Assembly (NCBI GenBank): GCA_017853245.1
Contig: JAFMJY010000007.1
Coordinates: 1-43,852 of the forward strand
Origin: Burkholderiales bacterium
GTDB lineage: Bacteria; Pseudomonadota; Gammaproteobacteria; Burkholderiales; Usitatibacteraceae
Reading direction: 5' to 3'
DNA length: 43,852 bases
Within the stretch, counting starts at the first letter, position 1. Each line of letters starts with the position of its first letter. Made by a program: the position numbers and the translations under genes. Of the stretch, positions 29,929-38,891 are shown one piece after another. The notes under the pieces are model-generated. The model saw only the letters and a program-made list of their open reading frames with translations. It ran no database searches and was not told the DNA's origin.

Positions 29929-30004
29929 GCGGCAGTAGCTCAGTTGGTAGAGCGCAACCTTGCCAAGGTTGAGGTCGAGAGTTCGAGACTCTTCTGCCGC
30001 TCCA
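29929..30004 (+). tRNA. tRNA-Gly(GCC)
   Basis: This is a 76-base cloverleaf with acceptor GCGGCAG (29929-29935) pairing with CTGCCGC (29994-30000), discriminator T and encoded CCA. The D stem is GCTC/GAGC. The anticodon stem CAACC/GGTTG encloses TTGCCAA with anticodon GCC. The T loop is TTCGAGA. A terminator follows nine bases after the CCA. Confidence 0.97.
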
Positions 30005-30012
30005 GTTTCCCT

Positions 30013-30045
30013 TCGGGGGGAGGCCAGCCTCCCCCCGAGTCTTTT
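30013..30045 (+). terminator. Strong Rho-independent terminator between the two tRNA genes
   Basis: An 11-bp perfect stem (TCGGGGGGAGG pairing with CCTCCCCCCGA) with a CCAG tetraloop is followed by GTCTTTTC. It starts nine bases after the tRNA-Gly CCA, so tRNA-Gly appears to be terminated before tRNA-Cys. Confidence 0.85.
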
Positions 30046-30078
30046 CAGATCCCTGGTGCGCATTGCCCGGGGCCATCC

Positions 30079-30152
30079 GGCGGGGTGGCAGAGTGGTTAT
30101 GCAGCGGCCTGCAAAGCCGTGGACGCCGGTTCGATTCCGACCCCCGCCTCCA
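30079..30152 (+). tRNA. tRNA-Cys(GCA)
   Basis: This is a 74-base cloverleaf with acceptor GGCGGGG (30079-30085) pairing with CCCCGCC (30142-30148), discriminator T and encoded CCA. The anticodon loop CTGCAAA carries anticodon GCA on stem GCGGC/GCCGT. The T loop is TTCGATT. No promoter is obvious in the 33 bases after the preceding terminator, so it may rely on read-through. Confidence 0.96.
30141..30152 (+). repeat. 12-base direct repeat, copy at the tRNA-Cys 3' end
   Basis: The 12 bases CCCCCGCCTCCA at the 3' end of tRNA-Cys recur in the same orientation at 34169-34180, upstream of the CocE-type gene. The pair brackets about 4 kb of accessory-looking minus-strand genes. A tRNA-end integration scar is possible, but the match is short, GC-rich and lacks an integrase, so chance is a real alternative. 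Confidence 0.25.
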
Positions 30153-30380: not shown

Positions 30381-32183
30381 CTACTGCAGGGGTTTCATCC
30401 CCCGGAAGAACTTGATGGCTCCGTCCAGAGACAAATTGTTCCTGACGTTATCGGGATACACCACGACATCCGGAATGCCGTCGTTGTCGAAATCGGCGAT
30501 CACCGACATGTACTTGTCGACGCGTTCCCTGGGCATCAATGTGAACTTTGTCAGGTCCCCCAGATTCAACTTCCTGAAGGTTTTGTCTTTCTGGTTGACA
30601 TAGACCTTCACGATTTCGGCAGCCGTCCGATTGGCGGTTGACGATATGCTCATCACCAGATCGTCGTACCCATCGTTGTTGACATCGATGCACTCCATCT
30701 TGGTATCGAGAAACTCCGTCTCGCCCTGGATGGCGAGCTTTTCCCGAGCCAGCTCCCTGCCGTCGCTCTTGAACCAGAAGCCCGTATGCTCGATTACTGA
30801 TTCGATGCTATCCATCGTAAGCTGAGATTGGCCCGCGTAAGGCTGCCGGAGGGCAGGAAAACTTGTCAGTCCGGCGATGAAGACTTCCCCGGCTCCATTG
30901 CGTACCGGGCAAAAGTTCTCGTTGCTGCCCGGGCCTCCACCCACGAGAATTTGCCTGTCTCCGTAGAGCGCGATATCGACAATTTTCCTGTCGCCCGAAT
31001 AGATGATCCAGGGCACATTGGTCGCGAGGACCTGTGTGATGTCTGGCTTGGCGACATTAGTGGGCAACCACGTGACGCCGCTCAGATAAAACCCCTCGGC
31101 AGCGAGGTACCCCCGGTAGGGGGTATGTTGAACCAGCCGGTTGCTCGGCTTTCCGCCGATGGATAGGAACCTGAAACCCCAGCCAGAGCTGGACGACATT
31201 GGGGGAAGAACTCCATCCTGGATTGTTGCGAGGCCCGAGCCGTTCCACATGTACTTGTTGTTCTGCTTGAACTCCCCCAAGTCGTTCGGGGTTCCTGCTG
31301 CGGTCACAAAGGGCTTGCCTAGCGGGTCGAAACCGTAACCGATACTTCCGTAGTACTTGCCCGCCCCGGCCTTATACATTCGGTACTTACCATTGGGCTG
31401 GCTGATGTAGCACACGACGTAGCCGCTCATGTCCGAACCAGCATCGAGGCTGCGCCCGTCTGCCTGGTTCGTCGAGTAACAGACATCCTGGCGGCCATCT
31501 TCGTTGAGATCCACCACGGCATAGAGAAATCCCGAACAGGATTGGCTGTCTCGGGTTCCCTCAATGAACTTCTCTGTGGCATCGACAAACTTGCCGTTCG
31601 CCCCCAATTCGTAGATGACCGTTTCGCTCTTGCACTTCTCCAGAACTTGCCCCTGATTGGCGACGTCCTGCCCAGGGCCCTTGCTCAGGGTCATCAGCAA
31701 TTCCGGCCGGCGATCGTTGTTCAGGTCCACCGCGACGGTTCCGTTAACCCTCGCGGCGAAGTAGTTGTAGTTGACTGGCCTGGATGGCTGGGCACTATCG
31801 AAAAACCAGTACTTGAGGGTCGGGTCCGGGAACGCTCCGGCAACCTCCTCAAGGTAAGGAAGCGCCGTGAAGGTCCCTGTGATGGTGCATGCTCCGGAGA
31901 TCGGGCCGGCGGTCAAGGTGGCGCCTGCGACACGGATGGCGCCGCAATTCGCACTATTACTCGTTGCACCCGAGAAGCCAAAGCCGGTGGCCGCCGCGAT
32001 CGAGCAGCTGGTCGTTCCACCACTGGGTACGGGGCTCGTACAGCTCAAGGTGCCGCCAGCGGAGCTCACACCAGTCACGGTGTAAGTGACGGCGGGCGGG
32101 GTGGTCTCCAATGGAGATCCCCCACCGCCCCCGCCGCAGGCGCTCAGGAAAAAGCACGCCCAAAGCGAAACTAACCTTTTCAT
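30381..32183 (-). CDS. FG-GAP/VCBS-like calcium-loop lipoprotein
   Basis: This is a predicted 600-residue outer-surface or periplasmic lipoprotein of unknown function. Signal peptide and lipobox are L13-S14-A15-C16, followed by a Gly-rich linker. Residues about 33-106 form a Cys-rich beta-type domain (C48, C60, C80, C99) resembling bacterial repeat domains. The rest is a likely beta-propeller with calcium-loop motifs DLNNDRRPE (153-161), DLNEDGRQD (225-233), DVNNDGYDD (500-508) and DFDNDGIPD (564-572). The ATG at 32183 has GGAG seven bases upstream. Base composition is clearly lower in GC than neighbours: hand counts of four 60-base lines gave 45-62%, against 78% in an era line. Recent acquisition is plausible. 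Confidence 0.82.
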   Translation of the reverse strand: MKRLVSLWACFFLSACGGGGGGSPLETTPPAVTYTVTGVSSAGGTLSCTSPVPSGGTTSCSIAAATGFGFSGATSNSANCGAIRVAGATLTAGPISGACTITGTFTALPYLEEVAGAFPDPTLKYWFFDSAQPSRPVNYNYFAARVNGTVAVDLNNDRRPELLMTLSKGPGQDVANQGQVLEKCKSETVIYELGANGKFVDATEKFIEGTRDSQSCSGFLYAVVDLNEDGRQDVCYSTNQADGRSLDAGSDMSGYVVCYISQPNGKYRMYKAGAGKYYGSIGYGFDPLGKPFVTAAGTPNDLGEFKQNNKYMWNGSGLATIQDGVLPPMSSSSGWGFRFLSIGGKPSNRLVQHTPYRGYLAAEGFYLSGVTWLPTNVAKPDITQVLATNVPWIIYSGDRKIVDIALYGDRQILVGGGPGSNENFCPVRNGAGEVFIAGLTSFPALRQPYAGQSQLTMDSIESVIEHTGFWFKSDGRELAREKLAIQGETEFLDTKMECIDVNNDGYDDLVMSISSTANRTAAEIVKVYVNQKDKTFRKLNLGDLTKFTLMPRERVDKYMSVIADFDNDGIPDVVVYPDNVRNNLSLDGAIKFFRGMKPLQ

Positions 32184-32520
32184 CTTGTCGCTCCGCAAGG
32201 TCTCGCGAGTCGCAAGCCAATTTTTACCACGCAATGGAGTTTCCAAGTCTACGCTGGCTCTCACGAGGCGTTAACGCCCCCTCAGCGGATGTGGATGGGC
32301 ATCCACCCAAACATGCACTGCCTCCTTAACGGATGGCAGGATCAGGAATGGATCACGGGCTACCGCTTGGCGCAACGGCACTCGCAACACGCAGACTTAT
32401 CTGGACGCGGGCAACGCGGCCGACGCCGAGTAACTGCCGAGGGCAAGGGTCGCGCTGATGAAGGAGGCTGCCAAGCGATCCATGGGGAACCTTCCCGGAC
32501 AAGCGCGATTTCTGAGGATC
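32184..32520. other. 337-base gene-free stretch
   Basis: This stretch separates the lipoprotein from the glutathione S-transferase and holds the lipoprotein promoter region. A perfect 12-base palindrome GGCGTTAACGCC lies at 32267-32278. Short open frames exist on the plus strand (for example one running into the antisense of the transferase), but none has a convincing start site or recognisable product. I see no RNA gene or repeat family in it. Confidence 0.6.
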
Positions 32521-33204
32521 TTAACGCCCCAAACGGTACGGCTCCTCGAAGTCCAGGAAATCTCTTTCGTTCAGCGCGCCGTCGATCCATGCCTTGACGG
32601 CACCGAGCTTGGCCACGCGGTCCATGTACTCGCGAATCGCCACAGGCACCGGGAGGCAGTACGTTTCCAGGCGCATGACCACCGGTGCGTAGAAGGCATC
32701 GGCGATGGTGAATTCGCCAAAGAGCATGGGTCCTCCATGCTCTCGCAGTAGGGCAGACCACATCTCGACGATGCGGGCCAGGTCGGCGCGCACGCGCGGC
32801 TTGTCACGCAGGGCGATGGCGCCGGCGTCGGGCAGGCTGGCTTCGATGTTCATGGGGCAATCCGAGCGCAGCGCTGAAAAGCCGCTGTGCATTTCCGCGC
32901 AGATGCTGCGTGCTCGGGCTCGATGCGCTGATTGCTGCGGCCAGAGTTGGCGGTCAGGAAATCGCTCGGCCAGATACTCGGCGATGGCCAGGGTGTCCCA
33001 TATAGCGAGAGCGCCATCGACGAGCACGGGCACTTTGCCCGCCGGGCTCAGTTCCGCCACCCGTTTCTTGAAGCGGGAATCGGGCGAGAAGCCATCGAAG
33101 CGCACCATGACCTCTTCGAACTCGATGCCTGACTGTCGCATGAGCACCCAAGAGCGCATGGACCACGACGAGTAGTTTTTGTTTCCGATATAGAGCTGGA
33201 GCAT
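32521..33204 (-). CDS. Glutathione S-transferase
   Basis: This is a 227-residue cytosolic glutathione transferase. The N-terminal thioredoxin-fold domain begins LYIGNKNYSSWSMRSWVLM, with the catalytic Ser/Tyr region at residues 10-16 and the cis-proline AGKVPVLVDG loop. An all-helical C-terminal domain includes the FTIADAFYAPVV N-capping box. The substrate is unknown; detoxification of electrophiles or cleavage of a thioether is likely. It is the third gene of a minus-strand trio, 34 bases after the unrecognised 158-residue gene. Confidence 0.93.
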   Translation of the reverse strand: MLQLYIGNKNYSSWSMRSWVLMRQSGIEFEEVMVRFDGFSPDSRFKKRVAELSPAGKVPVLVDGALAIWDTLAIAEYLAERFPDRQLWPQQSAHRARARSICAEMHSGFSALRSDCPMNIEASLPDAGAIALRDKPRVRADLARIVEMWSALLREHGGPMLFGEFTIADAFYAPVVMRLETYCLPVPVAIREYMDRVAKLGAVKAWIDGALNERDFLDFEEPYRLGR

Positions 33205-33238: not shown

Positions 33239-33715
33239 CTAGGAGCGAGGCTTGGGCAGGATATTCAAAGTGGCCTCGAGGACCTTTCGATCCTCCGGGT
33301 CCGGGAGCTGCGCTGTCAGCGAGTGCGCCGTTTCATAGTGGGATGTGTGAGCGACGGCGTCATGGTTGGCGGCCGCGACGTTAGCCGCCACCGCGTGGGC
33401 GAGGGCCACCTCCCAAGGCTGGGCAGTGCCCGATAGGAACACAGGCTGTGACGCAGCGAGATAGCGCGTCGCAGATCCCGCCAAACCCAGTAGTGCGTGC
33501 ACGTGTGCGAGCAGCTGTGCAGCGTGAGACCGCTGGCTTTCGTTGCCGACGATTCCCCAGAAGTGCATTGCCGCGTGGGCAGCGTGCAGCATCTCCTGAT
33601 CTTGCGCCGGCGTTCGCGAGGCAGCCTCCGTCAAGGCCCAAGCTCGATTATTAGCCTGGCCCGCGAGCCGTCGCTGCCAGATTGCCGTTTCCTCAGGCGT
33701 TGGCTTTTCAGTCAT
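33239..33715 (-). CDS. Unrecognised 158-residue helical protein
   Basis: I do not recognise this family. It is a soluble, Ala/His-rich, all-helical-looking protein without signal peptide, membrane segment or cysteines. It begins MTEKPTPEETAIWQRRLAGQANNRAW and contains several His-rich turns (HAAHAAMHFWGIV, HAAQLLAHVHALLG, HDAVAHTSHYETAH), suggesting a helical-repeat bundle of TPR-like size. The ATG at 33715 lies one base after the stop of the glutaredoxin-fold gene upstream, so the two are probably translationally coupled. A longer open frame runs through that gene but is shadow. Confidence 0.75.
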   Translation of the reverse strand: MTEKPTPEETAIWQRRLAGQANNRAWALTEAASRTPAQDQEMLHAAHAAMHFWGIVGNESQRSHAAQLLAHVHALLGLAGSATRYLAASQPVFLSGTAQPWEVALAHAVAANVAAANHDAVAHTSHYETAHSLTAQLPDPEDRKVLEATLNILPKPRS

Positions 33716-33716
33716 G

Positions 33717-34088
33717 TCAGTTTGGGCGCAGCATCCTGGCGAGCTCGCCGGATTCCCGAAGGGCGTTGAGATTCTCGAAGCCGCCGACGAGGACGCCTTT
33801 GACGAACACCATCGGGAACGTGGGCCAGCCCGCCCACATCTTGAGGGCGTTCCGACGCCGCCAGCCCGACAGGTAGCTGCCGTGCTCGATGTAATGGTGG
33901 GCGATCCCGGCTGAGCGCAGCAGGGCACACGCCTTTCGGGGGAACGGATTCCACCGCATGCCGATGACCACGACATCGTGGGCCTCGAGGGCTGCCTCGA
34001 CTTCCTCGACGAAACCGCGGTAGTGGTTGGCGACCCGCTTTCGAATGGCAGCGTGGAGACGATTTTCGGGAAGGATCAGTCGGCTCAT
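33717..34088 (-). CDS. Glutaredoxin-fold protein lacking the catalytic cysteine
   Basis: This is a 123-residue protein. An N-terminal helical extension (about 1-36) precedes a glutaredoxin fold: strand VVVIGM (39-44), active-site position NPFP (47-50), the RKACALL helix, the cis-proline block WPTFP (88-92) and the GSH-binding VGGFENL (101-107). The layout follows monothiol glutaredoxins, but where they have CGFS this protein has Asn-Pro-Phe-Pro; its only cysteine is C54, inside the following helix. It is therefore unlikely to be an ordinary thiol oxidoreductase; glutathione or Fe-S binding, or a scaffold role, is possible. The ATG at 34088 has GGAG nearby upstream. Confidence 0.85.
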   Translation of the reverse strand: MSRLILPENRLHAAIRKRVANHYRGFVEEVEAALEAHDVVVIGMRWNPFPRKACALLRSAGIAHHYIEHGSYLSGWRRRNALKMWAGWPTFPMVFVKGVLVGGFENLNALRESGELARMLRPN

Positions 34089-37132: not shown

Positions 37133-37849
37133 CTAACACGGGGCTGAGGGGCTCCGGTGCGCTGCCAATGTGCAGCGTTGCTGGCCTTGCGCGTCAAAGT
37201 TGCCAGGCTGCAGCCACGCCTCGAATGCGGCCTTGATCGCCGGCCAATCGCCATCGACTATCGCGAACCAGGCCGTATCTCGGGTTCGCCCTTTGTAAAT
37301 CATGTGTTGGCGGAAGATGCCCTCGAACTGAAATCCCAGTCGCAGGGCCGCGCGCCGTGATGGGGCGTTCAGGCTGTCGCACTTCCACTCGAAGCGCCGA
37401 TAGCGCAGGTCATCGAAGGCGCGCTTCATCAACAGAAACACCGCCTCGGTCGCGCCAGGTGTGCGCTGCAGTTTCGGTGAGAAGTTGATGTGGCCGACCT
37501 CAATCACGCCATTGGCGCGGTCGATGCGCATGAGGGACTCCACGCCTACCGCCTGGCCGGAATGCTTGTCGACGACGGCGTAGAACAGCGGGTCTTCCGT
37601 CGAAGCGGACTTCGCCACCCACTCCCGGAACGCCTCGCGCGTGCGCGGCTTGTCGGAGAAGAGGTAGGTCCAGTTTCGGCCCTCGGGATCGGACTCGTGG
37701 GCGGCAAAGAGCTCGTCCGCATGCCGCGCCGGGTCGAGCTGTTGCAGCCGAATGAAGCGCCCGTCGAGGGCAATTGGGTCGGGATACGGGCGGGCCGTCC
37801 AATTGGGGAGGGCGGGGCCGACGGGTTGCGGCGCGTTGGCATTCTTCAT
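37133..37849 (-). CDS. GNAT-family N-acetyltransferase (RimJ/RimL-like)
   Basis: This is a 238-residue Acetyltransf_3-type enzyme. The GNAT fold shows VGVESLMRIDRANGVIEVGHI (strands 3-4), the acetyl-CoA loop around QRTPGATEAVFLLMKRAF, and the later RFEWKCDSLNAPSRRAALRLGFQFEGIFR segment. Relatives acetylate amino groups of proteins or small molecules; the target here is unknown. Its ATG overlaps the stop of the upstream AraC-type regulator as ATGA, so the two are coupled. It converges on the Bug gene with 16 bases between stops. Confidence 0.9.
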   Translation of the reverse strand: MKNANAPQPVGPALPNWTARPYPDPIALDGRFIRLQQLDPARHADELFAAHESDPEGRNWTYLFSDKPRTREAFREWVAKSASTEDPLFYAVVDKHSGQAVGVESLMRIDRANGVIEVGHINFSPKLQRTPGATEAVFLLMKRAFDDLRYRRFEWKCDSLNAPSRRAALRLGFQFEGIFRQHMIYKGRTRDTAWFAIVDGDWPAIKAAFEAWLQPGNFDAQGQQRCTLAAHRSPSAPC

Positions 37850-38829
37850 CGGGTGGCCTTGCGTGCTTGCGTGGGGGTAACACCGTAGGCGGATCGGTAT
37901 CGACGCGTGAAGTGTGCCGCATCCGCGAATCCCGCCTCGGCGGCCACGTCGGAAACGGCGCGACCGGTCTCCAGCAGCAGTTGGTGCGCGTGTCGCAGGC
38001 GCAGCTGCCTCGCATAGGTGGCCGGGCTTACGCCCAGCTCGGCCCGGAACACGCGCTCGAGTTGCCGCACGCCGATTTTCAATTCCGCGGCCATGTCCGC
38101 CACCGACATGCGGCTATCGACGTTGCGCTCGAGAAGCAGCAGCGCGCGCCGCACCCAGACGTTCTGCGCGGTCTCCGTGCCAGCGGGCTGCGGCGTCGCG
38201 GAGGGCAGCGGTGCCTTCTCGATGAGGATGCGCAGTGCCTTGCGCGATTCCGCCTTGCCGACCTGGCGCTCGATCAAGTGCGCGGCGAGATGGGTCACGC
38301 TCGTTCCACCCGCGCAGGTGATGCGGTCTCGATCCGTGACGAAAAGCGGGCTTGAGGTGACCTCGTGCCGCGGAAACTCACGCGTGAACTCGCGGTAGTG
38401 AAACCAGCTCACGCACGCGCGGTAGCCATCCAGGAGGCCCGCACGCGCGAGGATGAAGCTGCCCGTGCACACGCCCGCCAGGGGAACGCGCTGCTGCGCG
38501 CAGCGCTTCAGGAATTTGATGAGGCGGGCGTCGATGCGTCGCCCGCCGCTGATGAGGCCGCCCACGACCACCACGATGTCGTGGCTCCCCGCTTCGTCCA
38601 GGCGAAGCGTGGGCGTCACTTCGACGCCGCAACTCGCCCGGATGGGCGCGAGGTCAGGCGAGAGCACCTCCCACTGGCAGCGCACAGGTCGGCTGCGATC
38701 GCCCTCGTCAGCCGCCAGGCGCAGGGCGTCCACGAACGAGGAGAACGCCACCAGCGTGAAGGAGGGCTGCAGGACGAATCCCACTCGCAGCGGGCGCGGG
38801 GCAGCGGGTTTGGGGGCGGCGTGACGCAA
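37846..38829 (-). CDS. GlxA-type AraC-family transcriptional regulator (GbdR/SouR-like)
   Basis: This is a 327-residue regulator. The N-terminal DJ-1/PfpI-like (GATase1) domain, about 14-190, has the nucleophile-elbow region [14 protein letters not shown]. The C-terminal AraC DNA-binding domain, about 220-327, contains [21 protein letters not shown] and the second helix-turn-helix [22 protein letters not shown]. This architecture is that of GbdR, CdhR and SouR, which sense glycine betaine derivatives, carnitine or sarcosine. Its divergent position beside sdaA-soxBDA strongly suggests control of those genes. The start is TTG at 38829, since an in-frame stop (TAG) lies just upstream; GAGA eight bases upstream may serve as ribosome site. 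Confidence 0.9.
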
Positions 38830-38891
38830 ACGGGCTATCTCATGTCGTAATTGGACAAGGTCGGCATTGTGCCCGATGGTTGAATCCTTCG

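Follow-up and report, generated by a model that had tools for sequence, protein, structure and literature searches.

Asparagine at the place of the nucleophilic cysteine in a conserved bacterial group of glutaredoxin-fold proteins

A cysteine defines the glutaredoxins, and a conserved branch of their fold that has lost this residue raises the question of what function remains once thiol chemistry is gone. The question is posed here by a 43,852-nucleotide stretch of DNA from a Burkholderiales bacterium, hereafter called the window, in which a gene for a 123-aa glutaredoxin-fold protein is followed by a gene for a 158-aa helical protein and by a glutathione S-transferase gene. Two matters have to be settled, namely what the altered redox site may still do and whether the three genes belong together, and the features on which both depend are the following.

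33717-34088, minus strand: glutaredoxin-fold open reading frame of 123 aa, a member of what is here called the NP group (ORF call and Pfam Glutaredoxin)
33939..33950, minus strand: codons for N47-P48-F49-P50, at the place of the CPYC/CGFS motif (sequence)
33813..33827, minus strand: codons for W88-P-T-F-P92 (alignment of 37 rows)
33780..33785, minus strand: codons for G102-G103 (alignment of 37 rows)
33713..33719, minus strand: stop/start junction TGA-C-ATG between the 123-aa and 158-aa genes (sequence)
33239-33715, minus strand: all-helical, probably TPR-like protein of 158 aa (AlphaFold2, TPR_12 in 4/27 members, PDB profile hits)
32521-33204, minus strand: glutathione S-transferase of 227 aa, a neighbour (GST_N_2, GST_C_2)
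Upstream of the 123-aa gene: a divergent neighbour encoding a Peptidase_S15/PepX_C hydrolase

The compact layout noticed in an earlier sequence-only reading is real: one base separates the stop codon of the 123-aa gene from the ATG of the 158-aa gene, and the transferase frame follows on the same strand as the latter after 34 bases. The transferase assignment rests on Pfam matches to GST_N_2 (53.3 bits) and GST_C_2 (36.5 bits), and the best NCBIfam model, PRK15113, scores 93 bits, below its cut-off of 150. Elsewhere in the window, genes for tRNA-Gly and tRNA-Cys lie at 29929-30152, an FG-GAP repeat protein (30381-32264) stands between them and the three-gene region, and an AraC-type regulator with a DJ-1/PfpI domain (37846-38856) adjoins a GNAT acetyltransferase (37133-37849). 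The two nearby tRNA genes raise the idea of a genomic island, for which convincing flanking direct repeats are lacking.

Fold and redox site of the 123-aa protein

At the level of fold, the 123-aa protein is a member of the glutaredoxin superfamily. It scores 29.7 bits with Pfam Glutaredoxin (PF00462), above the cut-off of 22.9, and its AlphaFold2 model (mean pLDDT 91.8) has the glutaredoxin fold with a helix at 48-59, only the N-terminal helical extension being of lower confidence. The first solved structure matched by the model is 3rhb, with Z 14.9 and an rmsd of 2.2 across 99 residues, and other glutaredoxins tie with it; Foldseek aligns the model with 3h8q_B at E 1.4e-07. Since the Pfam score exceeds its cut-off and the model matches solved glutaredoxins, the resemblance is not due to chance. 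No class within the superfamily can be assigned by profile, as the protein falls far below every NCBIfam class cut-off, the best being the Grx4 (CGFS) model TIGR00365 with 38.5 bits against the 117.1 required.

The motifs picked out in the sequence-only reading are all present: the redox site reads N47-P48-F49-P50, the WPTFP block occupies 88-92 and the Gly-Gly pair 102-103. The W88-P-T-F-P92 loop presumably holds the cis-proline of the glutathione site, as it does elsewhere in the family. Of the features expected of a functional CPYC or CGFS glutaredoxin, the Thr-X-Pro loop and the Gly-Gly of the glutathione site are thus retained, and the nucleophilic cysteine of the active site is replaced by Asn47; the only cysteine in the window protein is C54. 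The protein is a glutaredoxin by fold; among the functional glutaredoxins of the CPYC or CGFS class it cannot be counted, the defining cysteine being absent.

Relatives, conservation and paralogues of the NP group

Relatives of the 123-aa protein were gathered by whole-genome searches spanning the phylum of the window, its own genome included, in samples that overlap, and plasmids and phages were searched as further collections. NP glutaredoxins occur in 15/61 related genomes (matches above 120 bits), 22/300 genomes of the order, 8/369 of the class, one of them as a broken copy, and 5/398 of the phylum. The broken copy (genome G370, 1489-2014 of its locus, minus strand) is spread over two frames; intact copies exist elsewhere in the class. 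The phage collection gave no match, and among plasmids one from Loktanella, an alphaproteobacterium, carries an NP glutaredoxin. This is the one annotated copy found, and its plain label 'glutaredoxin' would mislead pathway reconstruction.

After removal of duplicate places (L037, L102, L103 and L106) and of the broken copy (L042), 37 distinct rows remained, the window's among them; two retained rows, L038 and L124, come from places where the search had flagged one stop inside the match. Position 47 is asparagine in all 37, position 48 is proline in 36, and position 50 is proline in 29 and valine in 8. Cysteine is missing altogether from 29/37 rows, and where it does occur, at 10, 54, 64, 86 or 104, it is never at the site. 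The sequence-only reading had named a homologue with a cysteine at position 47 as evidence against itself; there is none in the group (0/37), and only the distant CPYC and CGFS paralogues have one. The NP group is consequently a conserved bacterial group of glutaredoxin-fold proteins with asparagine in place of the nucleophilic cysteine in every row examined, and this fixed asparagine is its point of interest.

Other parts of the site are kept as well. W88, T90, P92, G102 and G103 are each present in 37/37 rows and P89 in 32/37; R79 and K83 are likewise invariant. An acidic residue, Asp or Glu, occupies position 106 in 35/37, the window copy having Asn there and Glu at 105. In all, Asn47 and 22 further positions are identical throughout the 37 rows. 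The residue after Thr-X-Pro is methionine in every NP row, as against glutamine in 19/19 CGFS and 11/11 CPYC rows, and the helix-3 glutamine of the CGFS rows is not kept. Aligned with the CPYC proteins of related genomes, the NP rows place N-P-F-P opposite C-P-Y-C with no gap; in a MAFFT alignment with CGFS proteins, the CGFS cysteine falls in an insertion that the NP group is without. Either way, no cysteine stands at the NP site. A further argument for inactivity, the loss of an activating lysine, was considered on the grounds that position 44 is methionine in 37/37 NP rows, and it was dropped because 10/11 CPYC rows of relatives have threonine in that column.

The relation to canonical glutaredoxins was addressed with an unrooted maximum-likelihood tree of 67 rows, comprising the 37 NP rows, 19 CGFS rows and 11 CPYC rows; the 30 canonical rows (loci L127-L156) were selected by motif pattern and represent the best-scoring loci, not all matches. 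In this tree, which is limited by few columns, a bootstrap that had not settled and one long row (L101), a branch supported at 97/96 separates the NP rows from all others, the CGFS rows are likewise set apart at 95/82 and the CPYC rows at 99/97, and the branch leading to the window copy is long (0.79). The genome of the window also encodes canonical glutaredoxins, of the CGFS (L128) and the CPYC (L148) type, and one of its contigs has matches to GshA (PF08886, 627 bits) and GshB (233 bits); GshA as modelled by PF04262 found no match in that genome. Given these canonical glutaredoxins and the GshA and GshB matches, the 123-aa protein is an extra, thiol-free paralogue.

What the thiol-free site may do

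Taken together, the kept pocket and the fixed asparagine point to a site that would hold its ligand non-covalently, the simplest candidate being glutathione or one of its derivatives. On balance, we hold it somewhat more likely than not that the NP protein binds glutathione or a similar molecule in this way and that the 158-aa protein and the transferase are mere neighbours. Such a protein would not act as a thiol enzyme at the usual site; its ligand would be glutathione or a related compound (GSSG, a peptide or a conjugate), and the side chain of Asn47, just ahead of helix 48-59, would stand in for the thiol. Its role could be that of a ligand carrier, a sensor or an adaptor. The ligand may, however, be something other than glutathione, because the glutamine after Thr-X-Pro has become methionine and the helix-3 glutamine is not kept. 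The long branch of the window copy and its Asn at 106, in place of the usual acidic residue, also count against this reading. The sequence-only reading had envisaged binding of glutathione or a metal cluster without thiol chemistry; its thiol-free element now extends to every row examined and glutathione binding stays plausible from the conserved residues, and its metal-cluster element is weakened, for reasons given below with the CGFS proteins.

The main rival to non-covalent ligand binding, possible though clearly the less probable of the two, is that the protein serves its protein partners as an adaptor or scaffold, with the former glutathione site surviving as a structural remnant. Complete or near-complete conservation extends to many group-specific positions beyond the classical site, the N-terminal extension included: R3, L6, G70, Y72 and W85 in 37/37 rows, H12 and W76 in 36/37. 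The kept site itself may serve folding or protein binding rather than glutathione. Against this, the presence of Asn47, the Thr-X-Pro loop and the Gly-Gly pair in 37/37 rows suggests that the pocket is in use.

Asparagine might also do more than occupy space. In glutathione transferases, a serine or tyrosine holds or activates the thiol of glutathione, and the fixed asparagine could play the corresponding part, in which case the NP protein would be a glutaredoxin descendant that works either as a transferase reduced to a single domain or as a sensor for glutathione conjugates. This we consider rather unlikely. A decaying gene, that is, a glutaredoxin that has lost its cysteine and is on its way to being lost itself, is more doubtful again: the window copy is divergent, as its long branch indicates, the G370 copy is broken and two more places have a stop inside the match, but Asn47 and the 22 further positions are fixed across several families and on an alphaproteobacterial plasmid.

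Neighbouring genes and comparison with known systems

The second gene of the region encodes a protein that the sequence-only reading had called histidine-rich and of no known family. The first description is apt for the window copy, with 11 histidines in 158 residues (7.0%, within a range of 3.1-7.7% among 27 aligned members); in the family at large only H47 is nearly fixed (26/27) and the other histidines vary, the invariant positions in the 27 rows being N23, W26, L43, A46, A48 and W53. The second description gives way to a probable assignment: the 158-aa protein is probably a member of a small, patchily distributed, TPR-like family. Taken singly, the window protein matches no Pfam family, TPR models included, at E 0.1 and no PDB chain at E 1, and faint matches to BON (E 0.19), TIGR02498 (E 0.024) and NF009700 (E 0.029), all far below their cut-offs, were set aside. 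At the level of the family, TPR_12 matches four of the 27 members, with a best E of 2e-05, and in the PDB the first hits of the 27-member profile are Pins/LGN TPR proteins, the best at E 4.2e-05, although the best rows contain no stretch that passes on its own. The AlphaFold2 model (mean pLDDT 96.7) has seven helices, and its structural neighbours are mostly TPR-type proteins; the match to 2hr2_B (Z 14.6, rmsd 2.9 over 143 residues) is tied with others and has a Z common for helical models. Foldseek found no match to the model at E 0.001, the first row being the designed helical protein 9k7u.

The family is widely scattered. One scan of named genomes yielded 58 loci, many of them in MAGs, with titles that range over Burkholderiales, Lysobacterales, other Proteobacteria, Planctomycetes, Eremiobacteraeota, Gemmatimonadaceae, Acidobacteria, Verrucomicrobia, Chthonomonas, Armatimonadetes, Chloroflexi, actinobacterial groups, WOR-3, Stahlbacteria and Thermoplasmata archaea. 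One locus titled as a Bifidobacterium breve MAG (L075, CALQBJ020000078.1) encodes a family protein 38% identical to that of the window; by eye it resembles an Acidobacteria copy (L073), and the title may reflect a mislabelled bin. In whole genomes the family is rare, occurring in 4/61 relatives and in 1/369 genomes of the class, namely that of the window, and it has no match in plasmids. The profile also matches 6/300 genomes of the order, five of them weakly and within longer open frames, so that these five were not counted as members; the frames (L119-L123, 301-598 aa, in five genomes) include a stretch distantly related to the 158-aa protein. The window copy is up to 63% identical to copies from other groups, as against 48-50% within its own genus, and of 11 window genes read in frame none has a lower third-position G+C (0.70, as against 0.73-0.88 for the other ten). 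Both the identity pattern and the low third-position G+C fit a separate acquisition of the 158-aa gene, which probably took place in the lineage of the window.

Whether the two proteins and the transferase work together, as a three-gene glutathione-dependent module, is a question that the layout invites, and the sequence-only reading had proposed as much. The genes share a strand and are separated by one base and then by 34, and the genome has GshA and GshB matches. Recurrence is nevertheless lacking, and this speaks against the proposal. At E 0.01, a search for glutaredoxins of any class around the 158-aa gene found none at its 58 named loci, of which 44/58 offer more than 1 kb on both sides and 39/58 more than 2 kb; conversely, when the 158-aa profile was run on 42 glutaredoxin loci (38 distinct places, mostly flanked by 1.5 kb), the window's own place gave the sole match. 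The pair accordingly recurs at 0/58 named loci and at 0/37 other glutaredoxin places. The sequence-only reading had itself named a lack of co-occurrence as evidence against its proposal, and the result comes near to that. Co-presence in genomes is suggestive only as long as the genome of the window is counted: among the 61 relatives, 3/4 genomes with the 158-aa family also have an NP glutaredoxin (P = 0.043), and with the window genome left out the figures are 2/3 against 14/60 (P = 0.13). In the two genomes other than the window's that have both genes, G007 and G018, these lie on different contigs, as does the NP glutaredoxin of G509 relative to a weak 158-aa match, for which the overlap without the window genome has P = 0.31.

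For the transferase there is one point in favour of the module and one against. At a single one of the 58 loci (L071, 12464-13438), a transferase 72% identical to that of the window lies about 4 kb from a 39%-identical 158-aa copy; at the other glutaredoxin loci the window's transferase has no relative. In flanks of mostly 1.5 kb, genes next to the NP glutaredoxins form clusters of at least three loci only within one genus each (overlapping frames aside, L009, L010 and L014, and L006, L109 and L111), and frames shared among neighbours of the 158-aa family read as shadow frames or synteny (Chloroflexi, Schlesneria) in the clusters checked, which were some of the total. The module is very unlikely, about as much so as gene decay. 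The 158-aa protein and the transferase are probably chance neighbours of the 123-aa gene, with no dedicated function in common, even if the three genes would perhaps be transcribed together.

The least credible reading, iron-sulphur cluster binding with glutathione after the manner of CGFS proteins, draws on the WP motif and Lys83, which the NP group shares with the CGFS rows, and on the Grx4 (CGFS) model as best NCBIfam match, far under its cut-off though it is, and is made unlikely by the absence of the cysteine that would carry the cluster, the ligand in glutaredoxins being the active-site cysteine, which is missing from 37/37 NP rows, 29 of which have no cysteine at all. Nor does the NP group possess the elongated loop between lysine and cysteine that, in a passage of PMC7138851, is described as typical of enzymatically inactive glutaredoxins.

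With the CGFS (class II, Grx4-type) proteins the NP group shares the fold, the WP before the Thr-X-Pro loop, R79, K83 and the Gly-Gly pair, and it differs from them in having no cysteine at the site, no elongated loop before that position, a methionine for a glutamine and an N-terminal extension. With the CPYC (class I, Grx3-type) proteins it shares the fold and a site that aligns free of gaps; unlike them, it has both cysteines replaced and WP instead of two arginines before the Thr-X-Pro loop. The 158-aa protein, for its part, probably has helical hairpins like those of the TPR-like Chlorobium tepidum protein CT2138 (2hr2), at an identity of just 11%.

Among the papers listed in a survey of open-access literature, at the level of titles and abstract openings, none concerns a glutaredoxin group with a fixed asparagine. 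Glutaredoxin-like proteins devoid of the active site have been in print since 2009, described in the section concerned as of unknown function (PMC2679010); like the NP group, these are single-domain proteins, some of them bacterial, that lack the redox motif. That section names neither sequences nor a fixed asparagine, so that sameness with the NP group cannot be told from it. Glutaredoxin-like proteins without an active site are, as such, already known; what the NP group may add is a conserved set in which, in all 37 rows, the place of the nucleophilic cysteine is held by asparagine.
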